A model generated the notes under the pieces. It made no database searches. It saw nothing but the letters and a program-made list of their open reading frames with translations, and was not told the origin of the DNA. This document shows, in pieces, positions 51,814 to 58,308 of a stretch of DNA of 64,000 bases (its first letter is position 1; every line of letters starts with the position of its first letter). This DNA comes from Streptomyces sp. MMBL 11-1. Its GTDB lineage: Bacteria > Actinomycetota > Actinomycetes > Streptomycetales > Streptomycetaceae. The translations under genes and the position numbers were made by a program. Location of the stretch: contig NZ_CP117709.1 in the NCBI RefSeq assembly GCF_028622875.1, positions 4,963,001 to 5,027,000 of the forward strand, in the 5' to 3' direction.

Positions 51814-52755
51814 TCACCAGTAGACGACGACCTTGTCGCCGTTCTTCACCTGGTCGAACAGCGCCGAGACCTTCTTCTTGTCCCGTACGTTGACGCAGCC
51901 GTGCGAGGCGCCGCCGTAACCGTTGGCCGCGAAGTCGGCGGAGTAGTGCACCGCCTGGCCGCCGCTGAAGAACAGGGCGTACGGCATCGGGGTGTCGTAG
52001 AGCGTCGACACATGGTCCCGGGACTTCCAGAACACCTCGAACACGCCCTCGCGGGTAGGCGTGTACTCCGAGCCGAAGCGCACGTCCATCGCGGAGACGA
52101 CCTTGCCGTCGTTCATCCACGCCAGGGTGCGGCTCTTCTTGCTGATGCACAGGACCCGGCCCGTCAGGCACCGCTTGTCCGGCGTGGCCACCGGCCGCTC
52201 GGTCGGCGGGGCCAGCTCGGTGGCCGTCGGCACCCGGGTCATGGCCAGCAGCCGCTGCCAGGTGACCGCGTCGGTGCTTCCGGTGACCGGCAGCCGCCGC
52301 TTGGCCTGAAAAGACCGTACGGCGTCGGCGGTGACGGAGCCGTAGTAGCCGGTGGGATTGCGCCCGAAGTGGCCGATCTGGCGCAGCCGGGCCTGGAGTT
52401 CCCGCACCCGGTCGCTCTCGGACCCCGTACGCATCAGGACGCGCGGGGGCGGTGCGGTGCTCGGCTCCGGAGCCGGCCGGGCCGTCGTCGGGGCCGGGGC
52501 CGGGGTGGACGTTGACGGGCTCGGCGGTGGCGCGGTGCTCGGCTTCGCGTCCTCGGTCGTGGGTGCGGGGGCCGTGAGGAAGGGGCTCGGGGTCGGTGCG
52601 GCCGCCTGGGTGGCCCGCACCGGCGGCGGCGCGTCCTGCGCCCCTGCGGCGGTCCCGGGCTCGCACCCCGTCGCGAGGGCGGCCAGCGCGACGAGGGAGA
52701 CGGCGGTGACGCGACGCCCCTGGGGCCGCCCGCCCCCACACCGCTCGGCGGTCAT
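51814..52755 (-). CDS. L,D-transpeptidase lipoprotein with peptidoglycan-binding domain
   Basis: This protein of about 313 aa carries a YkuD L,D-transpeptidase domain, forming 3-3 crosslinks or anchoring proteins. The catalytic motif is HYSADFAANGYGGASHGCVN with Cys287. An N-terminal peptidoglycan-binding domain (SDRVRELQARLRQIGHFGRN) precedes it. The signal peptide ends in lipobox LAALATGC. The ATG at 52755 (GGAGCGG upstream) gives this clean lipoprotein signal; the frame also starts at ATG 52890 with GGGGGA upstream, adding 45 residues. Confidence 0.9.
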   Translation of the reverse strand: MTAERCGGGRPQGRRVTAVSLVALAALATGCEPGTAAGAQDAPPPVRATQAAAPTPSPFLTAPAPTTEDAKPSTAPPPSPSTSTPAPAPTTARPAPEPSTAPPPRVLMRTGSESDRVRELQARLRQIGHFGRNPTGYYGSVTADAVRSFQAKRRLPVTGSTDAVTWQRLLAMTRVPTATELAPPTERPVATPDKRCLTGRVLCISKKSRTLAWMNDGKVVSAMDVRFGSEYTPTREGVFEVFWKSRDHVSTLYDTPMPYALFFSGGQAVHYSADFAANGYGGASHGCVNVRDKKKVSALFDQVKNGDKVVVYW

Positions 52756-53131
52756 GTCCGCTCCGTGTCCCCGTTCCGGTCCCAGTTGCGGTCCCGGCCC
52801 CAGTTCCGGCCCCGGTATCGCTGCCGTCGTCCGTGCTTCGCCCGGGCCCCATGCTCCCCGGCCGTCCCACCCGCTGTTCGTGTCCGCCATGTTCGGTCCC
52901 CCTGGCTCACCCGCCGGCCCGGTGCCTCCTGTACGGAATTCCCGTCCGGCCCGGTCACCGAATCCTCCGCCGGACGCCGGTCGCGCGTCCAGACCCCCGA
53001 GGGGTGGCCCGGTGGATCATGGCCGGTCCGGCCCGCCGCGCCCCTGCCTCTCCCGGGCGCCGCCGGACGGCCGGCATCGCCTGGTGAAACCCCCTGGACG
53101 GCGCCCCGTACGGGCGTGCGAGACTCCGTTC

Positions 53132-53815
53132 ATGCTGGGTGTCACCGATCTTCCGACCTATCTCGCCGGTCTGGCGCTGATCGTTCTTCTGCCGGGGCCG
53201 AACTCGCTGTACGTGCTCTCCGTCGCCGCCCGGCGCGGCGTGCGCACCGGCTATTCGGCCGCCGCGGGTGTCTGGACCGGGGACGCCATCCTGATGACGC
53301 TCTCCGCGCTCGGCGCCGCGTCCCTGCTCCAGACCACGCCCCTGCTCTTCGCGATCGTCAAGTACGCGGGCGCGGCCTATCTGACCTGGATGGCCATCGG
53401 GATGCTGCGGGCGGCCGTGTCCCTGTGGCGCGAGCGGCATCAGCGCACCGCCGAGCTGGTGGAGACGGTCGACACGGCGCAGACGGCTGGGGCCCCCGGG
53501 GCGAAGGCTCCCGCGGAGAGGCCCTACCGCCGGGCGCTGGTGGTCAGCCTGATCAATCCGAAGGCGATCCTGTTCCTGATCTCCTTCTTCGTCCAGTTCG
53601 TCGACCCGGGCTATGCCTACCCGGCGCTCTCGTTCCTGGTGCTGGGCACGCTGCTCCAGCTCGCCAGCTTCGCGTACCTCTCGGTGCTGATCTTCGGCGG
53701 CACCCGCCTGGCCGCCGCCTTCCGTCGCCGTAAGCGACTGTCGGCGGGGGCCACTTCGGCGGCCGGCGTTCTGTTTCTCGGGTTCGCGGCCAAGCTCTCG
53801 CTGAGCAGCGTGTAG
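53132..53815 (+). CDS. leuE: LysE/RhtB-family exporter, leucine efflux LeuE-like
   Basis: This 227-aa amino-acid exporter has the family's six-helix layout, starting LPTYLAGLALIVLLPGPNSL with the conserved PGPN motif, and GVWTGDAILMTLSALGAASL. ATG 53132. A central charged loop is longer than average. The exact substrate is inferred from LeuE similarity only. Confidence 0.88.
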   Translation: MLGVTDLPTYLAGLALIVLLPGPNSLYVLSVAARRGVRTGYSAAAGVWTGDAILMTLSALGAASLLQTTPLLFAIVKYAGAAYLTWMAIGMLRAAVSLWRERHQRTAELVETVDTAQTAGAPGAKAPAERPYRRALVVSLINPKAILFLISFFVQFVDPGYAYPALSFLVLGTLLQLASFAYLSVLIFGGTRLAAAFRRRKRLSAGATSAAGVLFLGFAAKLSLSSV

Positions 53816-53888
53816 CCGCACACAGGGGGAAGAGCCGGGGGAGGAGCCACGGGAAGAGCCGGTCGCACCCCTCGGCGCTGCCGGGTCC

Positions 53889-54064
53889 TCAGTGGTGCCA
53901 GGCTTTTCCCCCGACGTTGTGGATCATCCGCTGGAGCACCTTGGGCGCGGCGACGAACTCCGCCTCGGGGATGCCCTCGTGGATCTCCGAGCTCGCCCGC
54001 GCGACCCGGGCGTACGCCTTCCCGCGCAGCGCCCGGCGGGCGAGTCCCCCGCGTCGTCGTGTGA
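53889..54064 (-). pseudogene. 3' gene fragment next to the IS right end
   Basis: On the minus strand an open frame, without start, ends at TGA 53889-53891. It encodes LARRALRGKAYARVARASSE, IHEGIPEAEFVAAPKVLQRM and IHNVGGKAWHH. Composition and regular acidic/basic pattern look coding. Upstream it runs straight into the right end of the TnpB element, so it is probably the tail of a gene split or truncated by the insertion. The family is not recognised. Confidence 0.5.
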
Positions 54065-54250
54065 TTGACCATCCTCGCCCTCATAAGTGGGGGCGATTCC
54101 CTTCAGCTCGCGTGAGCGGGCTTGGGGGTTTCACGCATCCGCCTCCGTCTGGTGGCCGGGACTCGCACCCGAGGGGTGCTGCGCGTGCTGTTGGTGACCG
54201 TGCCACCGGTCCGGCGGGCACGGGCCTCGATCTCTACCGAGGCGTTGTGG
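54065..54250 (-). ncRNA. Putative omega-RNA (reRNA) of TnpB, scaffold part
   Basis: TnpB proteins use a guide RNA transcribed from the 3' part of tnpB through the element right end. The terminal hairpin and TCAA end fit. The guide would then be read from the flank: TCACACGACGACGCGGGGGA on the minus strand from 54064 downward. The 5' limit is a guess. Expression is not shown. Confidence 0.5.
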
Positions 54251-55386
54251 TCGGCGTCGTCCTCGTGTCCGCAGTGGACACAGGCGAACAGCCGGCCGCA
54301 TCCCTTGCGGGATTGGGGGTCGACCCGGCCGCAGGCGGCGCAGGTCCGGGAGGTGTGGAACGGTGGTACGACCCGCAGTTCCGAGCCGTACTGGCGGGCC
54401 TTGTAGGCGAGCTGGCGCCGTCGTTCGCCGGGGGTGTTGTCCAGGATCGACCGGTTGAGTCCGGCCTTGGCCCTGACGTTCTTGCCCGGCTTCTCGGCGG
54501 TGCCCTTGGCGGAAGCCGTCATGTTCTTCACGCGCAGGTCCTCGATACCGACCATGCCGTGGTTTTTGGCGAGGTCGGTGGTGAGTTTGTGCGTGAAGTC
54601 CTGGCGGCGGTTGGCCTGCCTGGTCCTGAGCTTGCCGATGCCCTCGATCGTCTTGCGCAGGCGGCGACTGTACTTCCCTCCGTTGTGCTTCTTGGCGTAC
54701 GTGAGCTGGCGGGCCTTCCTCTGTTCCAGGTGCTTGAGCCGCTTCTTCTCGCTGTCCGTCAGCGACGGTGGCATGAGGCGCGGTGCGGACTCGGTGGAGA
54801 CGTACGCGGATGCGGAGACGCCGAAGTCCACGCCGCAGCCGGGTTTGCCGTTCGGGGTGGCGGGCTTGGTCCCGGTGTGGACGCCGAAGGAGATGTGCCA
54901 GCCGTTGCCGTCCCGCGAGATGGTGGCGTTGCGGATCGTCCCCCCGATGGCACGGGACAACCGGAACCGGAGCCGTCCCAGCTTCGGAATACGCACCTCG
55001 GCCCATTTGCGGTTGAGCTTGCGGACTTCGACCGCCTGTCCTGGGAACGGGATGGACAGGCGGTGGCCGCGCTTCTTCCATGCCGGGAACCTCGCCGGGT
55101 GGTCCGGGTTCCAGAAGTTGTCGTACGCGGCGTCGAGACGGCGAAGGATCTGCTGCCCGGCCTGTGCGGGCAGGTCCCCCACCCAGTCCAGCTCGGCGCG
55201 GGCGGCGGTGAGGTGCTTGCACTGCTCGACGGAGCGCAGCGTGTACCCCCGCTGCTCCCACAGGTACACCCGCTGTTCCAGGGTGACGTTCCACAGAGCA
55301 CGCCCGGTGTGCCCCCACCCGGTCAGGACCGACTCCTGCTCCCCGGTGGGGTACGCACGGTACTTGCGCCCCGCATCCGCCTTCAC
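54103..55386 (-). CDS. tnpB: TnpB, RNA-guided nuclease of an IS605-type element
   Basis: This 427-aa TnpB/OrfB is a compact relative of Cas12. The RuvC residues are all present: Asp187 (GCGVDFGVSASAYV), Glu282 (GMVGIEDLRVKNM) and Asp379 (DDADHNASVEIEA). The zinc ribbon is CAACGRVDPQSRKGCGRLFA plus CVHCG. The N-terminal WED/REC-like part has RKYRAYPTGEQESVLTGWGH. The GTG at 55386 is preferred over TTG 55395; the open frame to 55572 runs into non-TnpB sequence. It seems intact. Confidence 0.93.
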   Translation of the reverse strand: MKADAGRKYRAYPTGEQESVLTGWGHTGRALWNVTLEQRVYLWEQRGYTLRSVEQCKHLTAARAELDWVGDLPAQAGQQILRRLDAAYDNFWNPDHPARFPAWKKRGHRLSIPFPGQAVEVRKLNRKWAEVRIPKLGRLRFRLSRAIGGTIRNATISRDGNGWHISFGVHTGTKPATPNGKPGCGVDFGVSASAYVSTESAPRLMPPSLTDSEKKRLKHLEQRKARQLTYAKKHNGGKYSRRLRKTIEGIGKLRTRQANRRQDFTHKLTTDLAKNHGMVGIEDLRVKNMTASAKGTAEKPGKNVRAKAGLNRSILDNTPGERRRQLAYKARQYGSELRVVPPFHTSRTCAACGRVDPQSRKGCGRLFACVHCGHEDDADHNASVEIEARARRTGGTVTNSTRSTPRVRVPATRRRRMRETPKPAHAS

Positions 55387-55512
55387 ACCGACCAACGTAC
55401 TCAGAGCACACGACAACTGCCCCTGGCATAGCAGTCGTTCACCCCTACGAGAGCAACAGGGAACATTCGTTCGGATGGAAAACGAAGGAGCGGGCATCTT
55501 CGTATCAGGTAG

Positions 55513-55815
55513 CCGTCGACCGCCACTCGACCCCGCAGGCTCTGCCAGGAGTTCTCCGGTCTCGTCCAGCACTACTACCGAGCCGACAAGCTCTGGTCCG
55601 GCTCCTGCTTCGCCGGGTCAGCGGGCGGGGCGCCTCTGAGCCTCGTGAACCAGCACATCGAGCAGCGAAACCGTCCGCTGCGACCTGCAGGGCAGAGCGC
55701 TTCTCGGAACCGCCTCACCGCCGGGCCGAAGCCCGATGCGCTGCGATTGAACCCGGTAGTCCATGCATCGGAACGTAGAACCTCAAGCAAAGTTGAGGTC
55801 AAACCCTCCTCGTAA
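55513..55815 (+). pseudogene. tnpA (IS200 Y1 transposase) 3' remnant
   Basis: An open frame without start contains RLCQEFSGLVQHYYRADKLW, SGSCFAGSAGGAPLSLVNQH and IEQRNRPL. This closely follows the C-terminal end of IS200-like TnpA (LWSxSYFAxSxGGAP...IEQQ). The catalytic HUH motif and Tyr-bearing N-terminal two-thirds are missing; a stop codon precedes 55513. The last 45 codons are not TnpA-like. It cannot mobilise the element itself. Confidence 0.72.
55772..55802 (-). promoter_or_regulatory. MerR/SoxR-type promoter with operator in a 19-bp spacer
   Basis: On the minus strand: -35 TTGACC (55797-55802), exactly 19 bp, then -10 TACGTT (55772-55777). The spacer holds most of the dyad CCTCAACTTTGCTTGAGG, one or two bases from the SoxR consensus. 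MerR-family activators use this over-long spacer. It points into the tnpA remnant, so its original gene seems lost or displaced. Confidence 0.65.
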
Positions 55816-55944
55816 GGCGTTCTCCGGCGCGCGCCCGGTCATCCCACGGACGCGCAGAGTTCACCCGCTGTCGTGGCGGGCGTCACCCGATCCTTCCGCC
55901 GTCTCACTAGGTTGTCGGGACCATGATCGAAGGCGAGGGCACGC

Positions 55945-56910
55945 GTGCCGAAACTGTCCGTTGTCGTACCGCTCCACAATGTCGCGCCCTACGCTCCGAC
56001 CACGCTGGGCAGCCTGGCCCGCAACGCGGACCCGGACATCGAGTTCCTGCTGGTCGATGACGCGTCCACCGACGGAACGCAGGACATCGTCGACCACTGG
56101 GCCGACCGCCTGCCGCGCGCACGGGTGATCAGGCACGGTACGAACGTCGGCATCGCGGCCGCCCGCAACAGCGGCATCGACGCCGCCGAGGGCGACTACC
56201 TCACCTTCCTCGACGGCGACGACTGGTACGCCCCCGGCCATCTGGACCGGCTCGTGCGCGCCGCCCAGGATCTCGACTGCGACTTCGCCCGCACCGACCA
56301 CGTCCAGTCCACCGGCACCACCCGCGTCGTGCGGCGCGCCCCCGCCCCCCTCCGGGACACCCTGCTCGACCCCCGCGAGGGGATAGGGGTACCCGAGCGG
56401 GAGACCATGGTCGACTACCCGTTCGTCTGGGCCGGGATCTACCACCGGCGGCTCTTCGCGGACGGCGCCCAGCGCTTCGCCACCGAACTGCGCACCGCCG
56501 AGGACCGGCTGTGGATCTGGCAGCTCCATCTGCGCGCCCGCACCTACGCGGCGCTCGGGCTGTACGGCATCTTCTACCGGCGCGGGGTCACCACCTCCCT
56601 GACCCAGATCAAGGACGCCCGCCAGCTCGACTTCTTCCCCGCCTACGACACGCTGCTCGACCAGCTGCGCACGGACCGGGACGCGAAGACCCTGCTGCCC
56701 AAGGCCGTCCGCACCTACTGCGCGATGATCGCCTTCCACAACGAGAAGGCCGGCGACTACGAGCCCGCCACCGCCCGGCGGCTGCGCTCCGAGTCGGCCG
56801 CCGCGCTGCACCGGATGCCGCAGGACGTGCTCGACCGCACCCTGACGATGATCGACGACAAGCGCGGCACGCTGCTCAGCCGTCTGCGCACCAAGCAGAA
56901 GGCCGCCTGA
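55945..56910 (+). CDS. GT2-family glycosyltransferase
   Basis: This 321-aa enzyme has the GT-A fold start LSVVVPLHNVAPYAPTTLGS, the first Asp pair in FLLVDDASTDGTQDIV, the DxD motif in TFLDGDDWYAPGHL, and the base-like EDRLWIWQLHLRA. It should transfer a sugar from a nucleotide donor. GTG 55945 follows GCGAGGGC. It opens the glycan gene series; the polysialyltransferase gene starts 3 nt after its stop. Confidence 0.9.
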   Translation: MPKLSVVVPLHNVAPYAPTTLGSLARNADPDIEFLLVDDASTDGTQDIVDHWADRLPRARVIRHGTNVGIAAARNSGIDAAEGDYLTFLDGDDWYAPGHLDRLVRAAQDLDCDFARTDHVQSTGTTRVVRRAPAPLRDTLLDPREGIGVPERETMVDYPFVWAGIYHRRLFADGAQRFATELRTAEDRLWIWQLHLRARTYAALGLYGIFYRRGVTTSLTQIKDARQLDFFPAYDTLLDQLRTDRDAKTLLPKAVRTYCAMIAFHNEKAGDYEPATARRLRSESAAALHRMPQDVLDRTLTMIDDKRGTLLSRLRTKQKAA

Positions 56911-56913
56911 CCC

Positions 56914-58308
56914 ATGCCTGTACCGCAGCCCGCACCGCAGCCCGCACCCGCGCCCGCGCACCGGCCGGTGCGTACCCAGATCTTCCAGGTGTCCACGCTG
57001 TACGGGGCGGCCACCCTGGCCGCCGCACTCGACGCCGGACAGTTCGGCCGGGCCCTAGACAGCCACCGCGTCCTGCTGGTCTCCAACAACGCGGCCGTCC
57101 CCGAAACGGCCCTGCGCCTGGAGGAGATGCGCGGTTACGGGTCCATCGCCGCCCGCTTCGACGCCGTCGTCGACTGGAACGAGGCGATCAGCCCGCACCA
57201 CCCCAGCGGCTGGGGCCCCCGCTCCGAGGAGACCGTCCTGTGGCAGCGGGCCTTCCGCCTGGCCTGGGACATCGCCCCCGACGCCCCCGTCGACCTGGCC
57301 GTGGAGTCCATCCAGGTCAACCCGGCCCGCGCGCTGGCCGCGATCTTCTCCGAGAGCGCCGTGCACGTCTACGCCGACGGCCTGATGAGCTACGGCCCCA
57401 CCCGCAACCGGCTGCCCCAGTCCATCGCCTGCCGTATCCGGCGCGTCCTCCACCTCGACCTGGTCACCGGGCTGCGCCCGCTCCTCCTCGCCGAGGCCGG
57501 CGTCGAACCCGAACTCGTCCCCGACGACGCCTTCCGCGCCGTCCTCTCCGAGATCGCCGCCGCGGCCGACGGGGACAAGAAGCTCGCCGCCGCCGAGGCC
57601 GCCGCCCCCACCGCGATGCTGCTCGGCCAGTACCTCGCCGCCCTCAACATCCTCACCCCGGAGGAGGAAGAGGACCTGCACGTGCGGATGTTGCGAGGAG
57701 CCGTACGCGCCGGGCACACATCCCTCCTCTTCAAGCCGCACCCCACCGCCCCGGCCGGCTACTCCCGCGCCCTGGACGAGGCCGCCGCCGAGGCCGGCGT
57801 ACGGCTCACCACCCTGGACGGTCCGCTGCTCGCCGAGACGCTGTACGAGCGGTGCGCGCCCACCCTGGTCGTCGGCTGCTTCTCCACCGCGATGTTCACC
57901 GCCGCCGCCTACTACGGCATCCCCGTCGCCCGCGTGGGCACCCGCCTGGTCCTCGACCGCATCACCCCGTACGAGAACAGCAACCGCGTCCCGCTGACGA
58001 TCACCGACCACCTCGTGCCCGACCTGGACGCGGACGGCGCCGGGACCGTCCCCCTGCTGCCGCGCACCGCGCCGGACACCCTCGCCCCGCTGGTGCGGAC
58101 CGTCGGCTACTGCATGCAGGCCAAGCTCAACCCGGGGCTGCGCCCCGACGCCGAGGCCTGGCTGCGGGAGCGGCTCGACCCCACGACCCAGCACTACTTC
58201 AAACGCCGCCGCCTGCAGAGCCTCACCCTGCCCGGCGGCGGCCCCCGGGGAGCGGCGGTCCGGCTGCGCCGCACCGTACGGCGCACCCGGAGCACCCTGG
58301 GCCTCTGA
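56914..58308 (+). CDS. Polysialyltransferase-family protein (alpha-2,8-PST-like)
   Basis: This 464-aa protein resembles the bacterial polysialyltransferase family (Pfam polyST). The family motifs are visible: the acidic D/E-x-G type VHVYADGLMSYG, the HP motif LLFKPHPTAPAG, and the Ser/Thr-rich FSTAMFTAAAYYGIPVARVG near the C-terminus. It ends in a basic tail (HYFKRRRLQSLTLPG) for membrane contact. It probably polymerises or starts a sialic-acid-like (Kdn/teichulosonic) chain; the exact sugar is inference. Confidence 0.85.
   Translation: MPVPQPAPQPAPAPAHRPVRTQIFQVSTLYGAATLAAALDAGQFGRALDSHRVLLVSNNAAVPETALRLEEMRGYGSIAARFDAVVDWNEAISPHHPSGWGPRSEETVLWQRAFRLAWDIAPDAPVDLAVESIQVNPARALAAIFSESAVHVYADGLMSYGPTRNRLPQSIACRIRRVLHLDLVTGLRPLLLAEAGVEPELVPDDAFRAVLSEIAAAADGDKKLAAAEAAAPTAMLLGQYLAALNILTPEEEEDLHVRMLRGAVRAGHTSLLFKPHPTAPAGYSRALDEAAAEAGVRLTTLDGPLLAETLYERCAPTLVVGCFSTAMFTAAAYYGIPVARVGTRLVLDRITPYENSNRVPLTITDHLVPDLDADGAGTVPLLPRTAPDTLAPLVRTVGYCMQAKLNPGLRPDAEAWLRERLDPTTQHYFKRRRLQSLTLPGGGPRGAAVRLRRTVRRTRSTLGL

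Follow-up and report, generated by a model that had tools for sequence, protein, structure and literature searches.

What would an unbroken tnpB do in a genome where the tnpA beside it has decayed? The locus that raises this question lies in a 64,000-nucleotide stretch of Streptomyces sp. MMBL 11-1 (contig NZ_CP117709.1, positions 4,963,001 to 5,027,000), here called the window. An earlier note on this DNA had proposed an apparently active TnpB, as a candidate domesticated or stranded RNA-guided nuclease. We find the element to be an unexceptional representative of a known family. The likely explanation of the locus is a 1,691-bp IS608-like IS200/IS605 element whose unbroken TnpB, loaded with a right-end RNA, would cut the empty allele and so keep the insertion. 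The features on which the argument draws are the following.

54065..55755, minus strand: whole element, 1,691 bp (left end 55755, right end 54065)
54103..55386, minus strand: tnpB, 427 aa, GTG start
54065..54254, minus strand: predicted omega-RNA scaffold (the folded stretch), overlapping the end of tnpB; its 5' limit is that of the stretch chosen
54075..54096, minus strand: right-end hairpin, 10 nt from the end, with GAAT just before it
54045..54064, minus strand: predicted guide, 20 nt, matching the G088 empty site perfectly over its first 17
55722..55735, minus strand: left-end hairpin CGGGCTTCGGCCCG, recognised by eye, at the same position in relatives
55534..55680, plus strand: tnpA remnant, 49 codons (tblastn, about residues 87-135)
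55756..55759, minus strand: target and predicted TAM, CTAC (host codon 3, TAC, plus one base)
55756..55764, minus strand: 5' stub of the interrupted gene, ATG GAC TAC, from the comparison with G029 and G088
53889..54064, minus strand: what remains of the 3' part of the interrupted gene, ~275 bp being deleted internally
55772..55802, minus strand: SoxR-type promoter of the interrupted gene (TTGACC, a 19-bp spacer with CCTCAACTTTGCTTGAGG, TACGTT)

Ends and insertion site of the element

We compared 18 right ends, from the window, L005 and 16 Streptomyces loci (L034-L044, L050, L053, L054, L062, L109); L082 and L083, which carry no recognisable right end, and L046 and L049, from another genus, were left out of the end counts. 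The likeness among copies ceases at GTCAA in 16 of the 18 and at GTCAC in two. GAAT stands ahead of the hairpin in 16 copies and the terminus is TCAA in 16; the window has both. Its right end thus reads GGTCAA followed by TCACACGACG, with the boundary after 54065, and the 17 other copies set it exactly where the earlier note had seen a hairpin and a TCAA terminus. The two copies that end in GTCAC are L038 and L041; at L041 the deviating base, judged by eye, keeps the last codon (GAG) of the neighbouring gene.

The left end was located from elements with intact tnpA, the left ends of relatives being read by eye. It lies at 55755, directly after CTAC, as CTAC/CGGG, the arrangement seen in relatives. 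CTAC precedes the left end in the window and in all nine readable elements of the same tnpA clade, and seven of these ten start with CGGG (L053, L163, L165, L167 and L168 have unreadable left ends and are not in the count). The same tetranucleotide is found at the left end of three more distant elements, L169-L171. The stretch between tnpB and the tnpA remnant (55387-55533, ~150 bp) had no match at E 1e-3 in the upstream stretches of 14 relatives. No second copy of the right end was found in the same genome among the best 40 of 86 candidates.

Subterminal hairpins, a right TCAA and GAAT before the hairpin are IS608-like features. In IS608 of Helicobacter pylori, the right cleavage site is TCAA and the guide is GAAT, according to an excerpt of PMC5934647; the two elements share these and insertion 3' of a tetranucleotide, but the target of IS608 is TTAC, that of the window element is CTAC, and the window tnpA is a remnant.

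Two Streptomyces genomes, G029 and G088, keep the uninterrupted site, ATGGACTAC^TCACA(C/T)GACGACGC, the caret standing at the insertion point. In G029 an uninterrupted 152-aa ORF begins ATGGACTAC^TCACATGACGACGC, and the G088 site reads ATGGACTAC^TCACACGACGACGCGGG; in the window the element stands between ATGGACTAC and TCACACGACGACGC. Because of these empty sites, sequence comparison places the insertion after CTAC, between host codons 3 and 4, without target duplication. Insertion 3' of a short target with no duplication is what is expected of IS200/IS605 elements. Downstream, G088 resembles the window neighbourhood (309 bp at 91%); upstream, the stretch compared shows no likeness beyond the gene start. 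Compared with G029, what is left of the host gene is short by ~275 bp, a loss that followed the insertion; compared with G088, its length differs by 2 bases near the junction. The interrupted gene likely encodes a regulator, and weak NCBIfam matches (MarR-type HpaR, E 0.0065; SlyA, 0.029) point faintly to a MarR-like one. Pfam gave no match at 0.001 and one weak match, to a phage family, at 0.053.

TnpB and the right-end RNA

The tnpB frame runs from the GTG at 55386 to a stop at 54103-54105, with neither an internal stop nor a frameshift in its 427 codons. The RuvC residues D187, E282 and D379 and the zinc-ribbon cysteines C349/C352 and C369/C372 (two CxxC pairs) stand exactly where the earlier note had placed an intact catalytic triad and zinc ribbon. 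All seven residues align with the motifs of ISDra2 TnpB and are invariant across the 17-protein alignment used for structure prediction (17 of 25 sequences kept, eight left out; L051 has a reported stop). The protein carries three Pfam TnpB domains and scores 237.8 bits with NCBIfam guided_TnpB (cut-off 100). By RuvC residues, zinc ribbon and family score, its sequence is that of a putative TnpB nuclease. The structural model built from the 17-protein alignment is of medium confidence (mean pLDDT 75.9, pTM 0.55); its top Foldseek matches are the TnpB structures 8h1j, 8iaz and 8exa.

The best PDB match by sequence is RdCas12n (9j09; 138.7 bits, residues 128-393). RdCas12n is a CRISPR effector, and this match prompted a search for a CRISPR array beside TnpB, an idea rejected as no suitable repeats occur in 52500-57500. 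Since it lies between transposon ends with a predicted right-end RNA, we take the window protein to be a TnpB and not a CRISPR effector.

Pairwise dN/dS between the window TnpB and eight relatives was 0.18-0.32, a span that includes time before the loss of tnpA. The set held nine of the 18 coding sequences, one of which, L054, carries a stop. Three pairs gave a coarse estimate for the window branch of dN 0.037 and dS 0.14, a ratio of ~0.26. The window RuvC-III motif is DADHN, where the typical TnpB has DRDxN (PMC10278001, in part). An open reading frame is no proof of activity, because 27 of 59 TnpB orthologues were active in a TAM screen described in the same excerpt.

We folded the 190 nt before the right end and obtained -88.4 kcal/mol (z -3.37), a value reached by none of 200 shuffles. 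In an alignment of 17 of the 18 copies (L050 left out), the consensus fold has 39 pairs, ten of them with two-sided changes, and 94.3% of cells are paired; slid versions of the alignment pair 39-43%. Of 500 shuffles, none attained four of the five covariation measures, and 101 attained the fifth (further pair types). Most of the covariation resides in the right-end hairpin, where six of eight pairs show two-sided changes. Constancy in the remaining scaffold is weak evidence because much of it is coding sequence. A search of the window against Rfam gave no hit at the gathering score. An omega-RNA processed from tnpB mRNA, with a hairpin at most 10 nt from the 3' end of the scaffold, is described in PMC10278001.

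The guide, which would begin at 54064 and reads TCACACGACGACGCGGGGGA, is the one that the earlier note had written out. Its first 17 nt match the G088 allele perfectly, beside CTAC; against the G029 allele there is one mismatch within the first 14 nt. Within the element, TCAA and not CTAC stands before the guide DNA. CTAC plus 16 nt of guide had no genomic match with fewer than three mismatches and five with three (one of them the element itself), against four for a backward control. Other genomic guide targets were therefore rejected, none standing above the control level.

One of the closest known systems is ISDra2 TnpB (8bf8, 8exa, 8h1j): the fold and the catalytic positions are alike, as is the predicted right-end RNA with the flank as guide, but only about a quarter of the residues are identical (24% to 8exa), and ISDra2 uses the target TTGAT where the window element uses CTAC. 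PMC8612924 describes a partly overlapping tnpA in ISDra2, whereas the window remnant is on the other strand; it equates target and TAM, proposes cutting of the donor joint and mentions isolated tnpB elements in the IS200/IS605 family. By this precedent, TnpB would load the RNA from the element's right end, with the flank as guide, and together they would cut CTAC followed by TCACACGACGACGCGGG, that is, the uninterrupted allele. Cutting of the empty allele would keep the insertion in place; the element would be spared from its own TnpB because TCAA precedes its guide DNA. We infer that tnpB is transcribed, that TnpB would make and use its omega-RNA in the manner of ISDra2 TnpB, and that CTAC would be its TAM.

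Loss of tnpA in cis and its relatives

The earlier note had called the matching tnpA decayed, and tblastn indeed recovered 49 codons only. The remnant lacks the HUH part, and RQYIEQQ has become NQHIEQR, with His in place of the Tyr that we take to be the catalytic tyrosine of TnpA. An autonomous element requires its own working HUH/Y1 TnpA, and here only 49 C-terminal codons are left. The window element is thus a degenerate, non-autonomous member of its family. Beside the 18 TnpB loci, tnpA is full length at three (L034, L038, L053) and a remnant at three (the window, L039, L035). It was not found at E 0.01 beside the other 12, of which L043 offers only 402 bases. Seven of the eight open TnpBs from the dN/dS set adjoin no full-length tnpA.

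The window's genome has two intact tnpA genes, C1:2166057-2166458 and C1:1860047-1860442, whose products are 82% and 68% identical, respectively, to the L034 TnpA, the partner of a TnpB of the window class. The former belongs to a complete IS605-type element (G000:C1:2164739-2166569) with a different TnpB, 28% identical to that of the window. This element sits inside a transporter-like gene whose frame, by eye, continues across it; its left end is CTAC/CGGGATTC and its right end AAGTCAA. An intact tnpA of this lineage thus stands in the same genome, in an element that shares the CTAC target and has similar ends, so mobilisation of the window element in trans is possible and, on these sequences, plausible; we infer that the distant TnpA could act on its ends. 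"Stranded" is therefore right in cis only.

From a scan of named genomes, 80 of 85 loci with a relative were retained. Of the 61 genomes compared around the window, one other, G012 (L005), encodes a TnpB more than 80% identical. All 17 other copies lie at other sites, 16 by right-flank BLAST and L050 by eye. In that BLAST (17 flanks, L050 left out) only L035 and L036 share the start of the flank; a match between L005 and L036 lies far downstream. L035 and L036, from two species, represent one common insertion; their nearest flanks are 85-88% identical, and neither has a full tnpA. Their TnpBs give dN/dS 0.198 at dS 0.395, and the neighbouring gene 0.229 at dS 0.278. With a common insertion and this ratio, retention of TnpB by selection without tnpA does seem to occur in that pair.

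The tnpAs of L034 and L038 are ~90% identical to those of L159, L160 and L161, and the left ends are alike; the TnpBs are ~26% identical. As judged from these sequences, TnpB/right-end cassettes have been exchanged at least once on one tnpA/left-end chassis. No higher number is claimed, because an AU test did not reject a single clade for the three tnpAs of the window TnpB class (p 0.18).

At five of 17 independent sites of the window TnpB class (L034, L035/L036, L040, L041, L062), the insertion falls on the stop codon of an opposite-strand gene; the neighbour at L041 is presumably GlmS, by its C-terminus. The sequence is NN/G TAG before insertion and NN/T TGA after it, so the TTGA end of the element restores the stop. 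Such sites are expected at 2.3% (21 of 916 CTAC sites; binomial 3e-5); the cases were picked by eye from ten long-frame copies, judged by a real-protein-like end, and CTAC itself was seen only at L034 among the five. Perhaps one or two of nine sites of the other TnpB class are of this kind, the flanks being too short to score. Searches of open-access papers, covering few subscription journals, turned up no paper on the window element, on the exchange of TnpBs in Streptomyces or on insertion at stop codons.

Weighing the explanations

The SoxR-type promoter ends 16 bp before the left end and is directed towards tnpB, which starts 386 bp further on, beyond the tnpA remnant. It shares 30 of 31 bases with G029 and 15 of 18 with the E. 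coli SoxR box given in an excerpt of PMC4411124; the G088 variant is TCTCAAGCGGACTTGAGG. CCTCAA and TTGAGG, 5 to 7 bases apart, occur at L115, L131 and L132, three of the 17 loci that carry a host-gene homologue, and their position directly before the gene was confirmed at L115 (G029). The window genome encodes a SoxR (233.8 bits, cut-off 116.9). A hairpin at 55781-55798, tried as the left end of the element, was rejected; it is the operator of the host-gene promoter. A -10-like sequence, seen by eye, seems to lie just before tnpB in the family. One could imagine a redox-switched, transposase-less homing nuclease: an element caught between a SoxR-controlled promoter and its gene, with TnpB induced by redox-cycling antibiotics, a guide that would cut the intact allele in DNA arriving from other Streptomyces, and a sister element's TnpA that would move the window element in trans. 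As a whole this combination is improbable.

Could the element instead be a dying relic, its TnpB open only because the insertion is recent, and inactive at present? We hold this unlikely, though it is the strongest of the rivals. Large parts of both the host gene and tnpA are already gone, as would suit a relic, but 427 codons are unbroken, the catalytic positions are present and the right-end fold is kept. A 160-base query across the right junction found no spanning match in 99 other genomes (up to eight best candidates each), which suits a relic and speaks against domestication, that is, the idea that TnpB persists here because it serves the host in some role independent of the element. The lost tnpA and open TnpB would fit domestication, as would L035/L036, another lineage that retains TnpB without full tnpA. 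However, the guide consists of the beginning of the disrupted gene, two relatives have empty sites, the other copies lie elsewhere, and the retention at one locus in several lineages, with a conserved guide or partner, that would mark a domesticated TnpB was not seen for this junction in the 99 genomes. The earlier suggestion of domestication thus finds no support, and we regard it as very unlikely. TldRs, TnpBs whose nuclease domain is described as inactivated (PMC13418256, in part), are likewise parted from tnpA; a nuclease-dead RNA-guided repressor of this type is scarcely credible here, as all three RuvC residues are present.

Taken together, dN/dS, RNA covariation, the fold, the empty sites, the guide match and the like ends of the element with the distant tnpA favour an element whose TnpB would cut the empty allele. 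Against it count the medium-confidence model, the DADHN motif, the dN/dS span that predates the loss of tnpA, the fifth covariation measure and the mismatch to G029. Gene drive by IS200/605 elements in plasmids via TnpB has been reported (PMC11870625, in part). Because another genome offers an empty site that is base-exact and matches the guide over 17 nt, the homing model can be put to the test on natural sequences. The exchange of cassettes on one chassis and the TnpBs without full-length tnpA bear on how TnpB spreads and persists.
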